From contig PBOZ01000069.1 of the NCBI GenBank assembly GCA_002724555.1, positions 1 through 64,000 on the forward strand: a stretch of DNA of 64,000 nucleotides, in the 5' to 3' direction. Each line of letters begins with the position of its first letter. Within the stretch, counting starts at the first letter, position 1. The notes beneath the pieces are model-generated. The model saw only the letters and a program-made list of their open reading frames with translations. It made no database searches and had not been told where the DNA came from. The stretch is from Rickettsiales bacterium. GTDB lineage: Bacteria; Pseudomonadota; Alphaproteobacteria; UBA8366. The translations under genes and the position numbers were made by a program. Below are positions 36,885-58,269 of this stretch, in pieces.

Positions 36885-37580
36885 CTATTTTGGCAAAGTT
36901 GGAAGCCTACGTTGATCGGCCAACTCTTTCGTCAAAATCCGTGCTTTTTCCGCATTCATTGATGCAATAACAGGAGCAACTTTACGTTCTTTCATATTAT
37001 TGATTACCTGCAAGAGAATAGGCATTTCCAATTCATTGAAGATATTCGCTGCATCTTTTGGTTTCATGTTTTCATAGATGGCAACAAGCTGGTTTACTTT
37101 GGCCTTCTCTTCCTTATTCTGTTTCTTAAGAAGAACCTTGATTTCGTCTTTCGTAGAGTTCAATTCGGTCTGCTTCTCAAGCAACTTCTGCTCGGCTGCC
37201 TTTAAGAGGACTTCACGTTCCTCTAATTGCTGCTCCCTGGCATCCAATACGTTTCGGCGTTCCGCCAATTCCTGCAACAGTTGAACCTCTCTTTCACTAA
37301 AGCGATTGGGATCGCCAACAATTGGCGTTTCGTCTTTCGTTTCTGACAAAGGCCGAGAGCCAGGCGGTAATTTTTGATTGCCGTTCGCGGTTTCATCTGC
37401 AGGTGCCAACGTTTGCGGGTCATCGGAACCCTCAGGTTGTTGCGCTAATGCCGGTTTAATTTCAATTCCACCTCTAAAATCAACGTCTGAAGCACCCTGC
37501 CAAATATTCAACGCCTTTTCTGAAAACATAAGAAACATGACGATGATCATTAATGGTAGAACTCTTACACGACCCTTCAT
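36885..37580 (-). CDS. motE: MotE-type protein (MgtE intracellular N domain), motor operon
   Basis: A 231-residue protein with an N-terminal hydrophobic signal/anchor (VLPLMIIVMFLMFSEKAL), a Pro/Gln-rich linker, a long coiled coil (VQLLQELAERRNVLDAREQQ... and on to LLKKQNKEEKAK) and a C-terminal domain LVAIYENMKPKDAANIFNELEMPILLQVINNMKERKVAPVIASM like the MgtE N domain. MotE is a periplasmic chaperone for MotC in Rhizobium. This product has the same layout and is common in alphaproteobacterial motor operons. Confidence 0.8.
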   Translation of the reverse strand: MKGRVRVLPLMIIVMFLMFSEKALNIWQGASDVDFRGGIEIKPALAQQPEGSDDPQTLAPADETANGNQKLPPGSRPLSETKDETPIVGDPNRFSEREVQLLQELAERRNVLDAREQQLEEREVLLKAAEQKLLEKQTELNSTKDEIKVLLKKQNKEEKAKVNQLVAIYENMKPKDAANIFNELEMPILLQVINNMKERKVAPVIASMNAEKARILTKELADQRRLPTLPK

Positions 37581-49786: not shown

Positions 49787-49847
49787 CCATTCAATTGTAT
49801 AACGTGGATTGACAGCGCCGCTATCAATCCCGGATAAACCTTCGAGT

Positions 49848-51638
49848 ATGAACCCTAAAAAATACGAGTTATCCGAAAAACTTGTCGGATCGCTGGGGGA
49901 TGTTCTCGCCAGCGCACAAACAGCATACAATGCGGGTGATTGCGAACGTGCGGAAAAGATATTACAACAAGTTTTAGAGTTGCACCCTCAAATCAGCGCC
50001 GCCTGGAAGTTACGCGGGCTTAACGCATTCAAACAGGGTCATCTTACGGAATCGAGTAACTACCTGCATCAATCGCTCAGCCTGGCACCTGATGATGCAG
50101 GCACATTATTCTATCTCGCTAATGCTTCTTTGAGAGATTTGGACTGTGCGCAAGCAATTCGACTCTACGAGCGCAGCATTGATTTAAAGCCTGACGTCCC
50201 AGAAGCACACAACAATCTGTCCACCGCCTTGCGCCTTGCCGGACGTCCTTCAGATGCCGTTGTAGCTGCCCGACAGGCCACCCAACTCAAACAAAGTTAC
50301 GGCGAAGCTAAAAATAATCTCGGTCTCGCCTTCTGCGATTTGAGACGGTACCCGGAAGCTATTAATTGCTTCGAAAAAGCGATTGAAATTAATCCGAATA
50401 ATTTGGAGGCACTCAATAATTTAGGGGTTGCCCTCGATGCTAAAGGCGAAATGGAGAAGTCTCTTATAGTTTTCGAACGTGCTCTTACTCTCTCTCCCCA
50501 AAACGTCGATGCGAAAATAAATCTAGGAAACGTATTCAGAAAAATTGGTCAACTAGATGATGCTGCCGCACTATTTTCTGAAGTACTTGACGAAAACCCA
50601 GCGGACTTGCGCGCACAGGCAAATCTCGGCCTGGTCTTACTCAACAAAAACAAACCAGCGGATGCCATCGTACGCTATAAGAAAGCCCTCGCGCATACAC
50701 CCAACAGCCCAGATATTCAGATGAGCCTTGGTATTGCACAATTGTTATTGGGAGACTTCGAAGCCGGCTGGCAGAATTACGAAGCTCGATGGCTCGCGCC
50801 ATCATTTGCGATCAAGCGACGAAGTTTTAATAGCCAACTTTGGACCGGACAACCACTCAAGGGAAAATCAATCCTTGTGTACGCGGAGCAGGGTTTCGGC
50901 GATACTATTCAGTTTGTCCCCTATGCCCCAATCATTGCAAAACAAGCGAGCGAAGTCATACTCGAATGCCAGAGGGACCTTTTGCGTATTTGTTCGAATT
51001 TGGAAGGCGTGTCTGAAGTAATTGCCCGCGGAGAATTTTTGCCGGAAACAGACTTTCATATTCCCTTAATGAGCCTGCCCCATCAAATGGGTACAAGGCT
51101 AGAGAACTTGCCGCTTGCAGAGCGCTATCTAACCCCCTCGATTTCTGCCACTCAACGTTTCCATGACCAACTAGAATCAACTAAAACATCCATTGGCTTA
51201 GTTTGGAGCGGCAACCCGGAACGCCAAGATGATAGAATGCGCAGCTGTCCACCGGAAGCGTTGATCCCATTACTTGGTTTAGACAGTTACGAGTTTGTTA
51301 GCCTTCAAGTTGGGACCTCAGCGGGAGACCTTCCCTCAGACATATTAGACTTTGGCGCAGAGTGCCGTGATTTTGCCGACACGGCCGCCGCCATTGAAGC
51401 GCTAGATCTCATTATTACCGTCGATACTGCAACAGCGCATCTCGCGGGGGCACTCTCAAAAGATGTTTGGGTAATGCTCGGTCATCACGCTGATTGGCGT
51501 TATTTAATGAACCGGACGGACTCGCCTTGGTATCCATCAATGCGATTGTATCGCCAACAAAAAATTGGCGATTGGGAAGGTGTCGTTGGGGAAATTTTGG
51601 ATGATCTAAACTCTGGTATTAGGATTGCTCGCACTTGA
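49848..51638 (+). CDS. TPR protein with GT9-like glycosyltransferase domain
   Basis: About 596 residues from the ATG at 49848 (the track starts at a TTG, 49809). The N-terminal 300 residues are at least seven TPR units (AINCFEKAIEINPNNLEALNNLGVAL and similar). The C-terminal part resembles heptosyltransferase-like (GT9-fold) domains: SILVYAEQGFGDTIQFVPY, SIGLVWSGNPERQDDR, and ALDLIITVDTATAHLAGALSKDVWVML near the end, followed by SPWYPSMRLYRQ. It probably glycosylates a protein bound by the TPRs. Position right after flgL and TTGA overlap with a second TPR glycosyltransferase suggest flagellin or FlgK/L modification (inference). Confidence 0.85.
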   Translation: MNPKKYELSEKLVGSLGDVLASAQTAYNAGDCERAEKILQQVLELHPQISAAWKLRGLNAFKQGHLTESSNYLHQSLSLAPDDAGTLFYLANASLRDLDCAQAIRLYERSIDLKPDVPEAHNNLSTALRLAGRPSDAVVAARQATQLKQSYGEAKNNLGLAFCDLRRYPEAINCFEKAIEINPNNLEALNNLGVALDAKGEMEKSLIVFERALTLSPQNVDAKINLGNVFRKIGQLDDAAALFSEVLDENPADLRAQANLGLVLLNKNKPADAIVRYKKALAHTPNSPDIQMSLGIAQLLLGDFEAGWQNYEARWLAPSFAIKRRSFNSQLWTGQPLKGKSILVYAEQGFGDTIQFVPYAPIIAKQASEVILECQRDLLRICSNLEGVSEVIARGEFLPETDFHIPLMSLPHQMGTRLENLPLAERYLTPSISATQRFHDQLESTKTSIGLVWSGNPERQDDRMRSCPPEALIPLLGLDSYEFVSLQVGTSAGDLPSDILDFGAECRDFADTAAAIEALDLIITVDTATAHLAGALSKDVWVMLGHHADWRYLMNRTDSPWYPSMRLYRQQKIGDWEGVVGEILDDLNSGIRIART

Positions 51639-53459
51639 ATAAAGATTTGCAAACTGACCATCAGTCCGATCCGCTTGAATTACTGCAAACAGCGTCCGAA
51701 CTGGCTGAGAGCGAGCGATGGGAAGACGTGTTGTCTTTTTGCGAAAAAGTACTCGAGACGGATCAGGGCATCGACTTGGCCGCTTATCTGGCAGGAATTG
51801 CTTGCGCTAAACTCAAAAGGCCAAATGAGGCAGTCCGCTATCTTACGGCAGTAATTTCTGTCGATGAACACGATGCCTCTAGGCTCTCAATACTGATTAG
51901 CCTTTTGCACGATATCGGTAAAACTGCCGACGCAATTCCCTATCTAGAACGTCATATTGAGTTGTCGCCCAACATCGATAACCTAAACCAACTTGCCGCC
52001 ATTTATGCCCGCAACGGACGCCTTAGTGAGGCGATCAATACATTCCGAAAGTCCTTAAGACTGGCGCCAGAGAACAATGTAGCAAGCGCAGGCCTTTACC
52101 CCCTTCTCCGTATTACATGCGACTGGGGTGATGCCCTCGATACATTGTCTAAACAAATCGATACGCTCAACAAAAATGCAATATCGCGCGGGGAGATGGC
52201 TCCAGAACCACCGTTCGACAACGTTCACCGTTGCGAAGATGAAAAGATGAACTTTGCGATCGCTCATTCATGGAGCCAATCACTGATCAACAGTGTCGGA
52301 GATGTGCCTGCGTTTACAAGAACATCAAAATCAAAGAAAACGGACGTTATCAAAATCGGTTACCTAAGCGCAGACTTTCATGATCATGCAACCGCCCACT
52401 TGATGCGAGGCGTTTTTCAAGCGCATGATAAAGGCGGTTTTCAGGTTTTCGCTTATTCATACGGCCCCAATGATCGCAGTGATTATCGGTCTGATATCCG
52501 TGCTGCCTGCAGCGAATTTGTCGATATTACTAAACTTACAGATCAAGAAGCCGCCACAAGGATATTCAACGATAAAATTGATATTCTCGTCGATTTAAAG
52601 GGGTATACTCGCCGCAATCGATTAGCCATTTGCGCCATGCGGCCAGCGCCTATTCAAGTCACCTATTTGGGCTATCCGGGTACAAGCGGCGCTTCATTTT
52701 TTGATTATGCGGTTACCGACGCCACAGTTACACCTGTGGATTCGCATAAATATTATCAAGAAAACCTGGTCATTCTACAAAACTCATATCAGTGCAACGA
52801 TAATAGACAAGAAGTACCTATAAAACCTTTAAACAATAATTTAAATAATTTTGATTTTATATTTTGTTCTTTTAATAACCCAATAAAGATAGAAAAATCG
52901 TTTTTTGAAATATGGTTGAATATAATTTCCTCCATACCAAATTCGTGCTTATGGTTACTTAAAAATAACGATGCTGCCGAATATAATCTTCGAAAATTCG
53001 CCAATAAATTTGGCATGGAGAAACGCCTAGTATTTTCCGAAATGTTGCCTCGTCAGCAACATCTTAGACGTGTGGCATATGCCGACCTAGCGCTAGATAC
53101 ACGTTATTATAATGGACACACCACAACTAGCGATGCGCTATGGGCAGGCGTGCCCGTTGTAACTCTAGAGGGAAGACACTTTGCCTCTCGTGTTTCTGCG
53201 AGCCTGCTCAGAGCAATGGGTCTTCCAGAATTAATAACGTCAACAACTAATGAATATAAAACTCGTATCATCGAACTGGCCACCAATACAAAAAAACGCG
53301 AGACGATCCAAAAAAAAAATTAATGAAAATCGGCTCAATACACCGCTTTTTGACACGATAAAATCCACACGTGAACTGGAGGCAGCATACAATGAAATGT
53401 ATCGCCGCCACTGCGCAGATGAACCACCAAGACTGCTAGAACTTTCGAAACTTGGTTGA
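51635..53459 (+). CDS. TPR SPINDLY/O-GlcNAc-transferase-like protein (GT41), frame broken at an A10 run
   Basis: A short TPR region (about 1-150) is followed by a full GT41 catalytic domain: IKIGYLSADFHDHATAHLM, VDLKGYTRRNRLAICAMRPAPIQVTYLGYPGTSG and YNGHTTTSDALWAGVPVVTLEGRHFASRVSASLLRAMG. The annotated ORF ends at 53323, but the usual family C-terminus (RLNTPLFDTIKSTRELEAAYNEMYRR) is in another frame up to 53459. Removing one A from the run at 53310-53319 joins them into 607 residues. The start is TTG overlapping the previous stop. The section near 52.8 kb is markedly AT-rich. Slippage, phase variation, mutation or assembly error are all possible. Confidence 0.85.
53310..53319 (+). repeat. 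A10 homopolymer at the frame break of the GT41 gene
   Basis: Ten consecutive A residues sit at codons CAA AAA AAA AAT just before TAA. With nine As the frame reads ...QKKINENRLNTPLF and continues to a normal C-terminus. Runs of this length are prone to polymerase slippage. Confidence 0.9.
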
Positions 53460-53472
53460 GTTGAAGCTTATC

Positions 53473-53913
53473 TTAGGCAACCACATCGCCACCACCGCTG
53501 ACCCCTCCAATTGGTGGTTGTGGTGGCACAGGTGGCGTATCTCCAGCATCTGGCGGATTCGCCATTAAACCGCTAGCAATATTACGATTTATATCAATTA
53601 GAACTTTTAGTTTGCGGCCCTCAGGAACGGCTAATGCATCTACTGTATGTTTGTCTATAAAGACGCTCAAATTCAAAATATTTTGCTTAATTTCCTCCGG
53701 CAAAGGGTTTTCCGTAGCCGAAACGTCGGACTGAAATATCGTCCAAAGGCGCCAATTAAGTCGCAATGCGGCTCGATAAGCCGAGATGTCCTCCATATTG
53801 TCCTGAGCATCCGCTAATGCCCGAGCCGTCTCCATCAGAGCCCGCGCTTCAGTCTGGCGAGCACCAGCCCCCAATTTTTGCGAGGAGCGATAGGGATCAC
53901 TGCTCGCTGACAT
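53473..53913 (-). CDS. flaF: Flagellin synthesis regulator FlaF
   Basis: A 146-residue protein of the FlaF family: TEARALMETARALADAQ, YRAALRLNWRLWTIFQSDVS, LPEEIKQNILNLSVFIDKHTVDAL and LKVLIDINRNIASGL are the family's conserved segments. FlaF is needed for flagellin production and export and works against FlbT. The C-terminal tail is Pro/Gly-rich (DTPPVPPQPPIGGVSGGG). It overlaps flbT by 17 nt. Confidence 0.93.
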   Translation of the reverse strand: MSASSDPYRSSQKLGAGARQTEARALMETARALADAQDNMEDISAYRAALRLNWRLWTIFQSDVSATENPLPEEIKQNILNLSVFIDKHTVDALAVPEGRKLKVLIDINRNIASGLMANPPDAGDTPPVPPQPPIGGVSGGGDVVA

Positions 53914-54292
53914 GCGTTAGCACCTCTTCTTCATATTGCATCAACTTTTTACAGTCCTTCATTGCGCTATAAAGGTTACCTTCAATAACTTTTCGTCCAA
54001 TATCAAGTAAAATTGGTGTCGAACTTGGTACTGCTTCAATGAAAGAACCCACTAACTCATTAAATTTACCTTGATGGTGACGTTCCCTATCTGGAAACAT
54101 GTACATCAATTGCACAGCAAAATAAATTCTTTTTGCCGGACTATCTGCCCCCTCTTCAGTCATTATATCGCGTTCTCGCAACACACTAGCTTTATTCTGA
54201 AGAACGAGTTCGGTCTTTTCACCACCATTCAGAACAACCGCCTGATTTATTATTACTTTTTCACCAGGCTTCAGTATTAATTTAAGAGGCAT
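53897..54292 (-). CDS. flbT: Flagellin mRNA regulator FlbT
   Basis: A 131-residue FlbT-family protein: MPLKLILKPGEKVIINQAVVLNGGEKTELVLQNKASVLRE is the characteristic N-terminal beta region, followed by AKRIYFAVQLMYMFPDRERHHQGKFNELVGSFIEAVPSS. FlbT binds the 5' leader of flagellin mRNA and limits its translation or stability until the hook is complete. Both flagellin genes upstream have predicted leaders of about 100 nt, which fits. It lies downstream of the flagellin terminator, so it should have its own promoter. Confidence 0.94.
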   Translation of the reverse strand: MPLKLILKPGEKVIINQAVVLNGGEKTELVLQNKASVLRERDIMTEEGADSPAKRIYFAVQLMYMFPDRERHHQGKFNELVGSFIEAVPSSTPILLDIGRKVIEGNLYSAMKDCKKLMQYEEEVLTHVSEQ

Positions 54293-54480: not shown

Positions 54481-55308
54481 TTAACCAAAAAGCGCCAGAA
54501 TTGACCGCTCGCTCTGCGCGGCGAGGGCCAATGAGTTAATACCCAGCTGCTGCCTGGTCTGAAGAGCCAGCAGTTTCGCACTTTCCTCGTTAAGGTCGGC
54601 TAGGGTCAGTTTACCCTCACCACTATTAAGGTTAGCAACGAGATTTTCGGTGAAATCCAAACGCGTTCCAAGGATCGTATTTTTCGAGCCCATTGTCGCC
54701 GCATTCGTACGTAGCTCTGACAATGCAGCAGAAATTGCCGTCAAAGCTGTATCAATATTGGCATTTAGGCCGAAATTATTGGCTGCAACGGCAATGTTAA
54801 TGCCGTCCGATCCAGTCGTGGAATCCAGACCAGTGATGGTCAGGTTACTCGTATTATCATCATTGAATGCAACCGCCAGATTATCAGGTGTCGCCTTAAG
54901 CAGGTTTGACCCGTTAAAGGTGGCGTCGTTTGCGATCAAATTGATTTGACTAAGTAATTCATTGAACTGAACAGCCAAAGTTGACCGCTCATTCGTATTA
55001 CCAGTCGACTTAGCATTAGTAGCAAGACCCTTGGCTTGAACAACCAGTTCAGTAATTGCATCAATACCATCGATCGCAGATTGAATGGTACTAATCGCCA
55101 AGTCAATTTCAGACTTCAGCAATTCGAAATCTGCTGCTGTGTTACTCAATGCTTTTGCAGTGAAAAACGCAGGAGCGTCATCAATAGCTGTATTAACCAC
55201 CTTACCCGTCGACAAACGCGTTTGCGTCAGAGCAATTAAATCAGTGGATCGCTGGAGGGTCAGTAGGTTTGACCTAACTGACGAAGATAGATTGACAGCA
55301 TCTGCCAT
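54481..55308 (-). CDS. fliC: Flagellin (copy A)
   Basis: A 275-residue short flagellin with N-terminal helices VNLSSSVRSNLLTLQRSTDLIALTQTRLSTGKVVNTAIDDAPAFFTA and C-terminal helix EESAKLLALQTRQQLGINSLALAAQSERSILALFG. The central domain is small, as in alphaproteobacterial flagellins, and rich in Asn/Thr/Ser, offering O-glycosylation sites. It is paralogous to copy B with the same length. TAGGAG precedes the ATG. A sigma-54-type promoter lies about 115 bp upstream, leaving a leader of about 100 nt that could be the FlbT target. Confidence 0.96.
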   Translation of the reverse strand: MADAVNLSSSVRSNLLTLQRSTDLIALTQTRLSTGKVVNTAIDDAPAFFTAKALSNTAADFELLKSEIDLAISTIQSAIDGIDAITELVVQAKGLATNAKSTGNTNERSTLAVQFNELLSQINLIANDATFNGSNLLKATPDNLAVAFNDDNTSNLTITGLDSTTGSDGINIAVAANNFGLNANIDTALTAISAALSELRTNAATMGSKNTILGTRLDFTENLVANLNSGEGKLTLADLNEESAKLLALQTRQQLGINSLALAAQSERSILALFG

Positions 55309-55592: not shown

Positions 55593-56420
55593 TTAACCGA
55601 AGAGACTAAGGATCGAGCGTTCACTCTGAGAAGCGAGCGCCAACGAGTTAAGACCCAGTTGCTGACGTGTCTGCAGTGCCAGTAGGTTGGCACTCTCCTC
55701 ATTAAGGTCGGCGAGAGTTAATTTTCCAGATCCGGCCTCAAATGTATTCGACAAGTTTTCAGTGAAGTCTAGCCGGGTTTTTAAGATGGTATTGGTCGAA
55801 CCAAAAGTGGCTGCATTACTACGCAACTCCGTCAAGGCGGAAGAAATCGCAGTCAAGGCCGTATCAATATTTGCATTGAGACCAAAGTTATTGGCAGCCG
55901 CAGCAATATTGATGCCTGTTGAGGCAGTCGTGGCGTCCAGACCTGTGATCGTTAGGTTCGAAGTATTGTCCGCATTGAAAACAACAGCGAGATTGTCGGG
56001 TGAAGCCTTTAGTAGGTTCGTGCCATTAAACGTTGAATCATTTGCCAACTGATTAATCTGGCTCAACAGCTCATTGAACTGAATTGCAAGTGTAGACCGC
56101 TCGTTGGTATTTCCCGATGACCTTGCGTTACTTGCTAGGCCTTTGGCCTGCTCCACAAGAGCAGAAATCGATTCGATACCATCGATAGCCGCTTGGACTG
56201 CACTTATCCCTAAATCAATATTGGTTTTAAGGTTCGTTAAATCGGACGCCCGATCGTCAAATGCTCGTGCAGTGAAAAATGCAGCCGCATCGTCAAGCGG
56301 TGAATTAACTCGGAGACCTGTTGAAAGACGCGTCTGTGTCTGATCGATTGATCGACCCGTGGCTTGCAATGCTAAGAGGTTGCTGCGCACGGATTCTGTC
56401 AAGCTAATTTTATCTGCCAT
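55593..56420 (-). CDS. fliC: Flagellin (copy B)
   Basis: A 275-residue flagellin paralogous to copy A: the N-terminus has SLTESVRSNLLALQATGRSIDQTQTRLSTGLRVNSPLDDAAAFFTAR and the C-terminus EESANLLALQTRQQLGLNSLALASQSERSILSLFG. Several differences fall in the DxxS/A-rich N-terminal helix and around residues 65-95. AAAGGAG precedes the ATG. It has its own consensus sigma-54 promoter. No clear terminator separates it from the copy A promoter region, only a weak 6-bp hairpin near 55513-55534. Confidence 0.96.
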   Translation of the reverse strand: MADKISLTESVRSNLLALQATGRSIDQTQTRLSTGLRVNSPLDDAAAFFTARAFDDRASDLTNLKTNIDLGISAVQAAIDGIESISALVEQAKGLASNARSSGNTNERSTLAIQFNELLSQINQLANDSTFNGTNLLKASPDNLAVVFNADNTSNLTITGLDATTASTGINIAAAANNFGLNANIDTALTAISSALTELRSNAATFGSTNTILKTRLDFTENLSNTFEAGSGKLTLADLNEESANLLALQTRQQLGLNSLALASQSERSILSLFG

Positions 56421-57765: not shown

Positions 57766-58269
57766 ATTTCCTCAATCAAAAGGTTAATAGTCTATCCATA
57801 ATTCGCTTGTTCTGCCATTGCCCTAAAAATTATTTTTTTAAAAAAATAATTCCCCTCAAACGCTATTGATTGTGGCTCTACAATCACAGTTCAACACTTG
57901 ACGAAACAGACAAATCGTTCAACAGAAAGAATTTTGTTCTTCGTTCCAAAACCGCCAAGCCGCCAGTCTGAATGATACAACACGACGAGAACAGCTTTAA
58001 ACGGCTCTTCTATCTTTCCCATATCGCGAAAATTCATGGAAAAAGTTATAAAAATTTGAAAATCTGTCTATTAATCGAAAGTGCTACCCGTTAACGCTTC
58101 GAGTGCCTGACCGCGCCCAGACGCCTGTCGAATAACGATCACTGAGTTATTACTATTTCATGCAAATTCGGTAGCAAAGTCGTAAACGCCACCTAAAATT
58201 TCTTGCACATCATGACTGGGAACAAGAGGAGCAACCTAATATGATTTCTCCAACGCATCGGGATTTTTC
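57766..58269. other. 504-bp divergent gap between the aminotransferase and wbqC genes
   Basis: No gene is supported. It contains a 24-bp all-AT perfect palindrome (57828-57851) about 63 bp upstream of the aminotransferase start and a short inverted repeat GATTGT...ACAATC near 57868. Promoters for both genes should be here, but I saw no sigma-54-type match. Confidence 0.5.
57828..57851. repeat. 24-bp perfect AT palindrome
   Basis: AATTATTTTTTT is followed directly by its reverse complement, giving seven T then seven A at the centre. It could extrude, bend DNA or bind a regulator such as an H-NS-like or MucR/Ros-type protein. It lies upstream of the sugar aminotransferase gene. Confidence 0.7.

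Follow-up and report, generated by a model that had tools for sequence, protein, structure and literature searches.

The window analysed here, a 64,000-nucleotide stretch of a Rickettsiales bacterium draft genome (assembly GCA_002724555.1, contig PBOZ01000069.1, positions 1 to 64,000), carries a gene for a glycosyltransferase of the GT41 (OGT-like) type that is broken at a run of ten A residues. The question raised by this locus is whether the run acts as a switch, is decoded through slippage, has inactivated the gene, or has been given the wrong length in the assembly.

The GT41 reading frame is interrupted at an A10 tract

The break is described by three features:

51635..53323, forward strand: 562-codon ORF of a GT41 (OGT-like) glycosyltransferase, TPR repeats N-terminal to the GT41 catalytic domain, premature TAA
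53310..53319, forward strand: A10 tract, one base beyond the reading frame of the orthologues, with the stop TAA directly 3′ of it
53322..53459, forward strand: out-of-frame GT41 C-terminus, 45 conserved codons and TGA, in the +1 frame

A match to the Pfam profile PF13844 (Glyco_transf_41) over the ORF (E 3e-93) bore out the GT41 identity proposed in the preliminary description of this DNA. Like XcOGT (PDB 2jlb), the predicted protein combines TPR repeats with a Glyco_transf_41 domain, and the HTTTSD..WAG motif is kept in the window ORF; unlike in XcOGT, the last C-terminal segment is out of frame. The break was also as described: the ORF meets a TAA (53321–53323) directly after the tract, and the truncated product ends in ETIQKKN. 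The match of the C-terminal part of the ORF to PF13844 (E 2e-43) stops at position 523 of 543, compared to 542 for the intact orthologue of a relative from the same genus (G001), whose similarity to XcOGT and human OGT extends almost to the C-terminal end. The truncation thus removes the last C-terminal segment and spares the HTTTSD donor-binding region.

Rather than completing a single reading frame, the conserved C-terminus sits in the +1 frame, where positions 53322–53456 encode NENRLNTPLFDTIKSTRELEAAYNEMYRRHCADEPPRLLELSKLG, followed by TGA. This tail opens with the usual GT41 C-terminal sequence NENRLNTPLFDTIKSTRELEAAYNEMYRRH. With one A less, the N-terminal part, one Ile codon and the tail join into an enzyme of 607 residues, in agreement with the preliminary description. 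The tract is located at 92% of the gene length, and no lesion besides the A10 excess was found in the GT41 gene. A −1 ribosomal frameshift at the A run was considered and rejected, as it yields the third frame, which is closed after 12 codons.

The GT41 gene belongs to a conserved flagellar locus

The flagellar setting of the gene was confirmed, with FlaF, FlbT and two flagellin genes adjoining it:

49809..51638, forward strand: intact upstream gene for a TPR protein of 609 residues whose C-terminus is GT-B-like (layout resembling that of FlmG)
53473..53913, reverse strand: FlaF, convergent with the GT41 gene (PF07309, E 3e-30)
53897..54292, reverse strand: FlbT (PF07378, E 3e-40)
54481..55308, reverse strand: flagellin 1
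55593..56420, reverse strand: flagellin 2

The order flgI, flgK, flgL (names assigned by reading of the sequences), TPR-glycosyltransferase, GT41, convergent FlaF, FlbT and flagellins is common to three species. By this synteny the GT41 gene, like a gene of the FlmG type, has its place in a conserved flagellin locus. FlmG of Caulobacter crescentus, a characterised flagellin glycosyltransferase of 596 residues, consists of a TPR N-terminus and a GT-B C-terminus (PMC7591256). The GT41 gene resembles it in the TPR and GT-B layout and in the alphaproteobacterial flagellar context with FlaF and FlbT, but encodes a separate enzyme type. By size and layout alone, the nearer match to FlmG is the neighbour at 49809–51638 (609 versus 596 residues), in which profiles match the TPR part only and the glycosyltransferase part was judged by eye. 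From its position, the GT41 enzyme may glycosylate flagellin.

In both congeners another TPR-glycosyltransferase gene lies between the genes of a DegT aminotransferase and a WbqC-like protein. It is absent in the window, and no remnant of it was detectable in the corresponding 504-bp gap (57766–58269). Given this absence, the glycosylation locus may be shrinking.

The long A run is found in the window lineage alone and the tail has not decayed

Intact, syntenic GT41 orthologues are present in both relatives of the same genus (G001, 64% identity, 608 codons; G002, 54% identity, 651 codons). Both window fragments align to the G001 orthologue without gaps, the sole indel being one surplus base in the window; the earlier claims of a conserved C-terminus in a different frame and of one extra A in a slippage-prone tract thus stand. 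At the tract site G001 reads AGA CAA AAA ATT GAA (A6) and G002 reads AGC AAA ATT GAA (A4), which makes the long run a feature of the window lineage alone. The preliminary description had proposed comparison of the tract in relatives as a check, and by this comparison the long run is not conserved.

Tail identity between the window and G002 is 18/42 (43%), and between G001 and G002 20/42 (48%); over the first 30 codons the values are 17/30 (57%) and 16/30 (53%), respectively. The window and G001 tails differ at 12, 10 and 28 first, second and third codon positions (pN 0.27, pS 0.77). The identities, together with this pattern, indicate that selection acted on the tail, in its own frame, until very recently or continues to do so. 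A decayed tail is ruled out by the identity with G002 and the low pN relative to pS. Since the tail is as conserved as it is between the intact relatives, either the lesion arose very recently, or it is a miscall, or it is bypassed in part.

One reading of the break is a fresh pseudogene, in which the frameshift is real and inactivating and the gene is about to decay. The open frame does end about 45 residues early, and the absence of the neighbouring TPR-glycosyltransferase gene that both congeners have points in the same direction. However, the gene has no further lesion and its tail is not relaxed, and we regard this reading as improbable.

Alternatively, the A10 may be fixed and RNA polymerase slippage may routinely yield in-frame mRNA, so that truncated and full-length enzyme coexist. 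Purifying selection still acting on the tail and the presence of an A/T run of at least 9 at the frame transition (A10, 53310–53319) are consistent with this. Slippage at runs of at least 9 A is known and rescue of interrupted ORFs by slippage has been proposed; Baranov and colleagues, who describe this class of interrupted ORFs, caution against labelling them as pseudogenes (PMC1088944). The window gene resembles their ORFs interrupted at A9/T9 (Baranov 2005, PMC1088944) in having a single-base change in a run of at least 9 A and one-ORF orthologues. It differs in that its frame is restored by losing one A or gaining two, whereas gaining one A is the commoner event, and in that it is known from draft-assembly sequence alone. 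One-A insertions predominate in transcriptional slippage (PMC5574713), but at this site the gain of one A leads to the third frame, which closes quickly. Moreover, the frame transition is not conserved, both congeners having one uninterrupted ORF without the tract, and no sign of selection for the tract was seen. Slippage decoding of the GT41 gene is, in our judgement, unlikely.

Long homopolymer runs occur near chance frequency and rarely break genes

The draft genome comprises 2.56 Mb in 110 contigs, with 65% completeness, and the length of the A10 is that called in this assembly. A10 is the longest class of A run in it, with three A10 runs and none longer (runs of 14 were searched for too). 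There are 28 A/T runs of at least 9 genome-wide, against about 24 expected, by our own estimate, in random sequence at 47% GC; G/C runs of at least 9 number 7, and by our own arithmetic the A/T and G/C totals are near random expectation. Genes hosting long runs include lpd, acyl-CoA dehydrogenases, cfa and bamB. Long A runs are less frequent in the relatives (9 in 4.8 Mb of G001; six distinct tracts inspected in G002), and the window lineage is more AT-rich than its two congeners.

Twelve of 27 inspected A/T tracts of at least 9 are within intact ORFs (of at least 200 codons). An in-frame A10 was found in an LpoA-like gene (named by eye), with homology to G001 and G002 on both sides of the run. 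Roughly 2 of 14 coding long runs are frameshifted, those of the GT41 gene and lpd. No split gene was revealed in a sample of 30 A8 sites, where two candidates flagged by a script turned out to be starts of neighbouring genes, and none of 12 sampled A8 tracts inside ORFs was associated with a break. For 52 window genes a counterpart is present on two G001 contigs; of these window genes 51 are unbroken and the GT41 gene is the sole split one. A generally indel-prone assembly is ruled out by these unbroken genes and by the lack of breaks at the sampled A8 tracts inside ORFs. With so few frameshifts overall, a generally error-prone assembly is hard to maintain, which leaves room for real slippage. 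The surplus single A is limited to runs of at least 9, a pattern compatible with run-length miscalling and with real slippage alike but not with selection for switches among surface genes.

The latter point bears on the earlier suggestion of a phase-variable contingency locus, at which replication slippage between A9 and A10 would toggle the enzyme and alter flagellin or surface glycans. A glycosyltransferase gene of a flagellar locus containing the genome's longest class of A run agrees with such a role. However, the 28 A/T runs do not amount to an excess over the number estimated for random sequence, long runs are also found in core genes (lpd), and the tract is absent in both relatives, which have A6 and A4. 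In addition, the run is so late in the gene that the product of the off state would still reach PF13844 position 523. A 5′ bias of poly-A/T is reported only for runs of 5 to 8 bases (Orsi and colleagues, PMC2831843), and the late position alone is therefore weak evidence. Cj1295 of Campylobacter jejuni, an example of homopolymer phase variation in flagellin glycosylation (PMC3068675), is similar in having a homopolymer in a glycosylation gene; the window tract differs from it in being poly-A, late in the gene, not conserved and not accompanied by a genome-wide excess of tracts. With the run near the 3′ end and long A runs near chance frequency, the proposal of a dedicated phase-variable locus was not upheld, and we consider it very unlikely.

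Two other runs were noticed in the genome. On contig C12 (L065, minus strand, 1198–1200 reverse-complement) an in-frame stop splits what by eye is an apparent GAF-domain protein, and a G9 run lies 33 bases further on. The longest G run detected, a G10 on contig C54 at 74332 (L067 1501–1510), is situated a short way 5′ of a glycosyltransferase-like ORF with a weak match of the MJ1255 type; the run is possibly a promoter-type tract.

A second gene, lpd, is split by one surplus A

The second frameshifted gene is on another contig:

contig C82, A9 at 36969 (stretch L059 1132–2593): lpd (dihydrolipoyl dehydrogenase), split, one surplus A at the A9

Its parts match TIGR01350 positions 1–101 and 98–461 in two frames, joined at the A9. 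The lpd gene is intact in G001, G002 and G004, where FKKNKVDY is encoded with AAG codons and no long run is present. At the site of the run the relatives have AAG AAG AAT AAG, and the window genome has all A save one T. That a core enzyme is in the same state as the GT41 gene favours slippage decoding of the latter, and the occurrence of a lesion of the same kind in lpd speaks against a fresh GT41 pseudogene. Miscalled run lengths in this draft assembly account for the lpd lesion at least as well as slippage decoding does. A distant lpd paralogue (38% identical) is present on contig C21, and the cell might therefore tolerate losing the split copy.

An AT-rich patch within the gene is conserved in the genus

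Within the GT41 gene another feature was delineated:

52711..53020, forward strand: AT-rich patch at the junction of the two catalytic lobes, its composition kept in all three genus members

The contrast of this stretch with its neighbours had been remarked on and was substantiated. GC in 150-bp segments drops to about 0.21–0.23 at about 52.71–53.02 kb, the lowest among the window's coding segments, and on the contigs of both relatives, too, no coding segment is lower in GC than the homologous patch. GC3 of the patch compared to the contig mean is 0.22 versus 0.46 in the window (z −3.3), 0.13 versus 0.60 in G001 (z −5.4) and 0.23 versus 0.59 in G002 (z −4.3). The patch is missing from GT41 genes elsewhere in the order and class. 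It is unconnected with the frameshift, because both relatives have the patch and an intact gene.

Synonymous sites of the patch are saturated across the three species yet AT-rich. The fraction of synonymous codons shared within it is 0.52, compared to 0.54 predicted by regional codon usage; since sharing is no higher than predicted, composition persists while the sequence turns over. This value, together with the lack of a second copy in the three genomes, disfavours a recent or frozen ancestral import. A conserved rare-codon pause is also disfavoured: rare codons cluster in the patch of G001 (codon-rarity minimum −58) and of G002 (−54), whereas in the window species its codons are common. A promoter in the patch was rejected, no excess of promoter-like sites being found. 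A constraint at the DNA or RNA level is possible, for example through a nucleoid protein with a preference for AT-rich DNA that would bind close to the convergent flagellar genes. The conserved patch is an oddity in its own right, and a better-supported one.

All three species also have an AT-rich FlbT gene (53897–54292 in the window), about 1 kb from the patch; its GC3 falls to 0.10 in G001. The FlbT protein is 87–89% identical among genus members.

Origin of the A10 run and its implications

At such lengths homopolymer runs are prone to change during replication, transcription and library preparation. We conclude that the A10 is probably a miscalled run length or a very recent slip in a full-length gene under selection, and not a switch. 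On this explanation the gene would encode a full-length GT41 enzyme of roughly 607 residues, kept by selection up to the present. In an AT-drifting lineage, stretches of lysine codons may turn into A8–A9 runs by ordinary substitution, most clearly in lpd, and the A tract of the GT41 gene would have grown in the window lineage where the relatives keep A6 or A4. The assembled A10, one base out of frame, would then reflect either a miscall of the length or a replication-slippage allele that arose very recently and is possibly mixed. Should the A10 be real, RNA polymerase slippage would still produce some in-frame mRNA, with one A lost or two gained. The sequences directly show the lesion, the intact orthologues, the constrained tail and the like lesion in lpd; we infer both the transience of the lesion and any such leaky expression.

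Slippage rescue of frameshifted genes has been reported for AT-rich insect endosymbionts. A comparable account for this organism, to which we assign a low probability, is that an AT-drifting flagellated alphaproteobacterium gathers A9–A10 runs, as in lpd and the GT41 gene, and RNA polymerase slippage keeps the genes working. If the runs are miscalls, the case would be a caution: a lone homopolymer that is out of frame in a draft genome says little about phase variation unless the other long runs of the assembly are checked. If the GT41 A10 and the lpd A9 are real and fixed, they would provide a test of slippage rescue of core genes outside endosymbionts.
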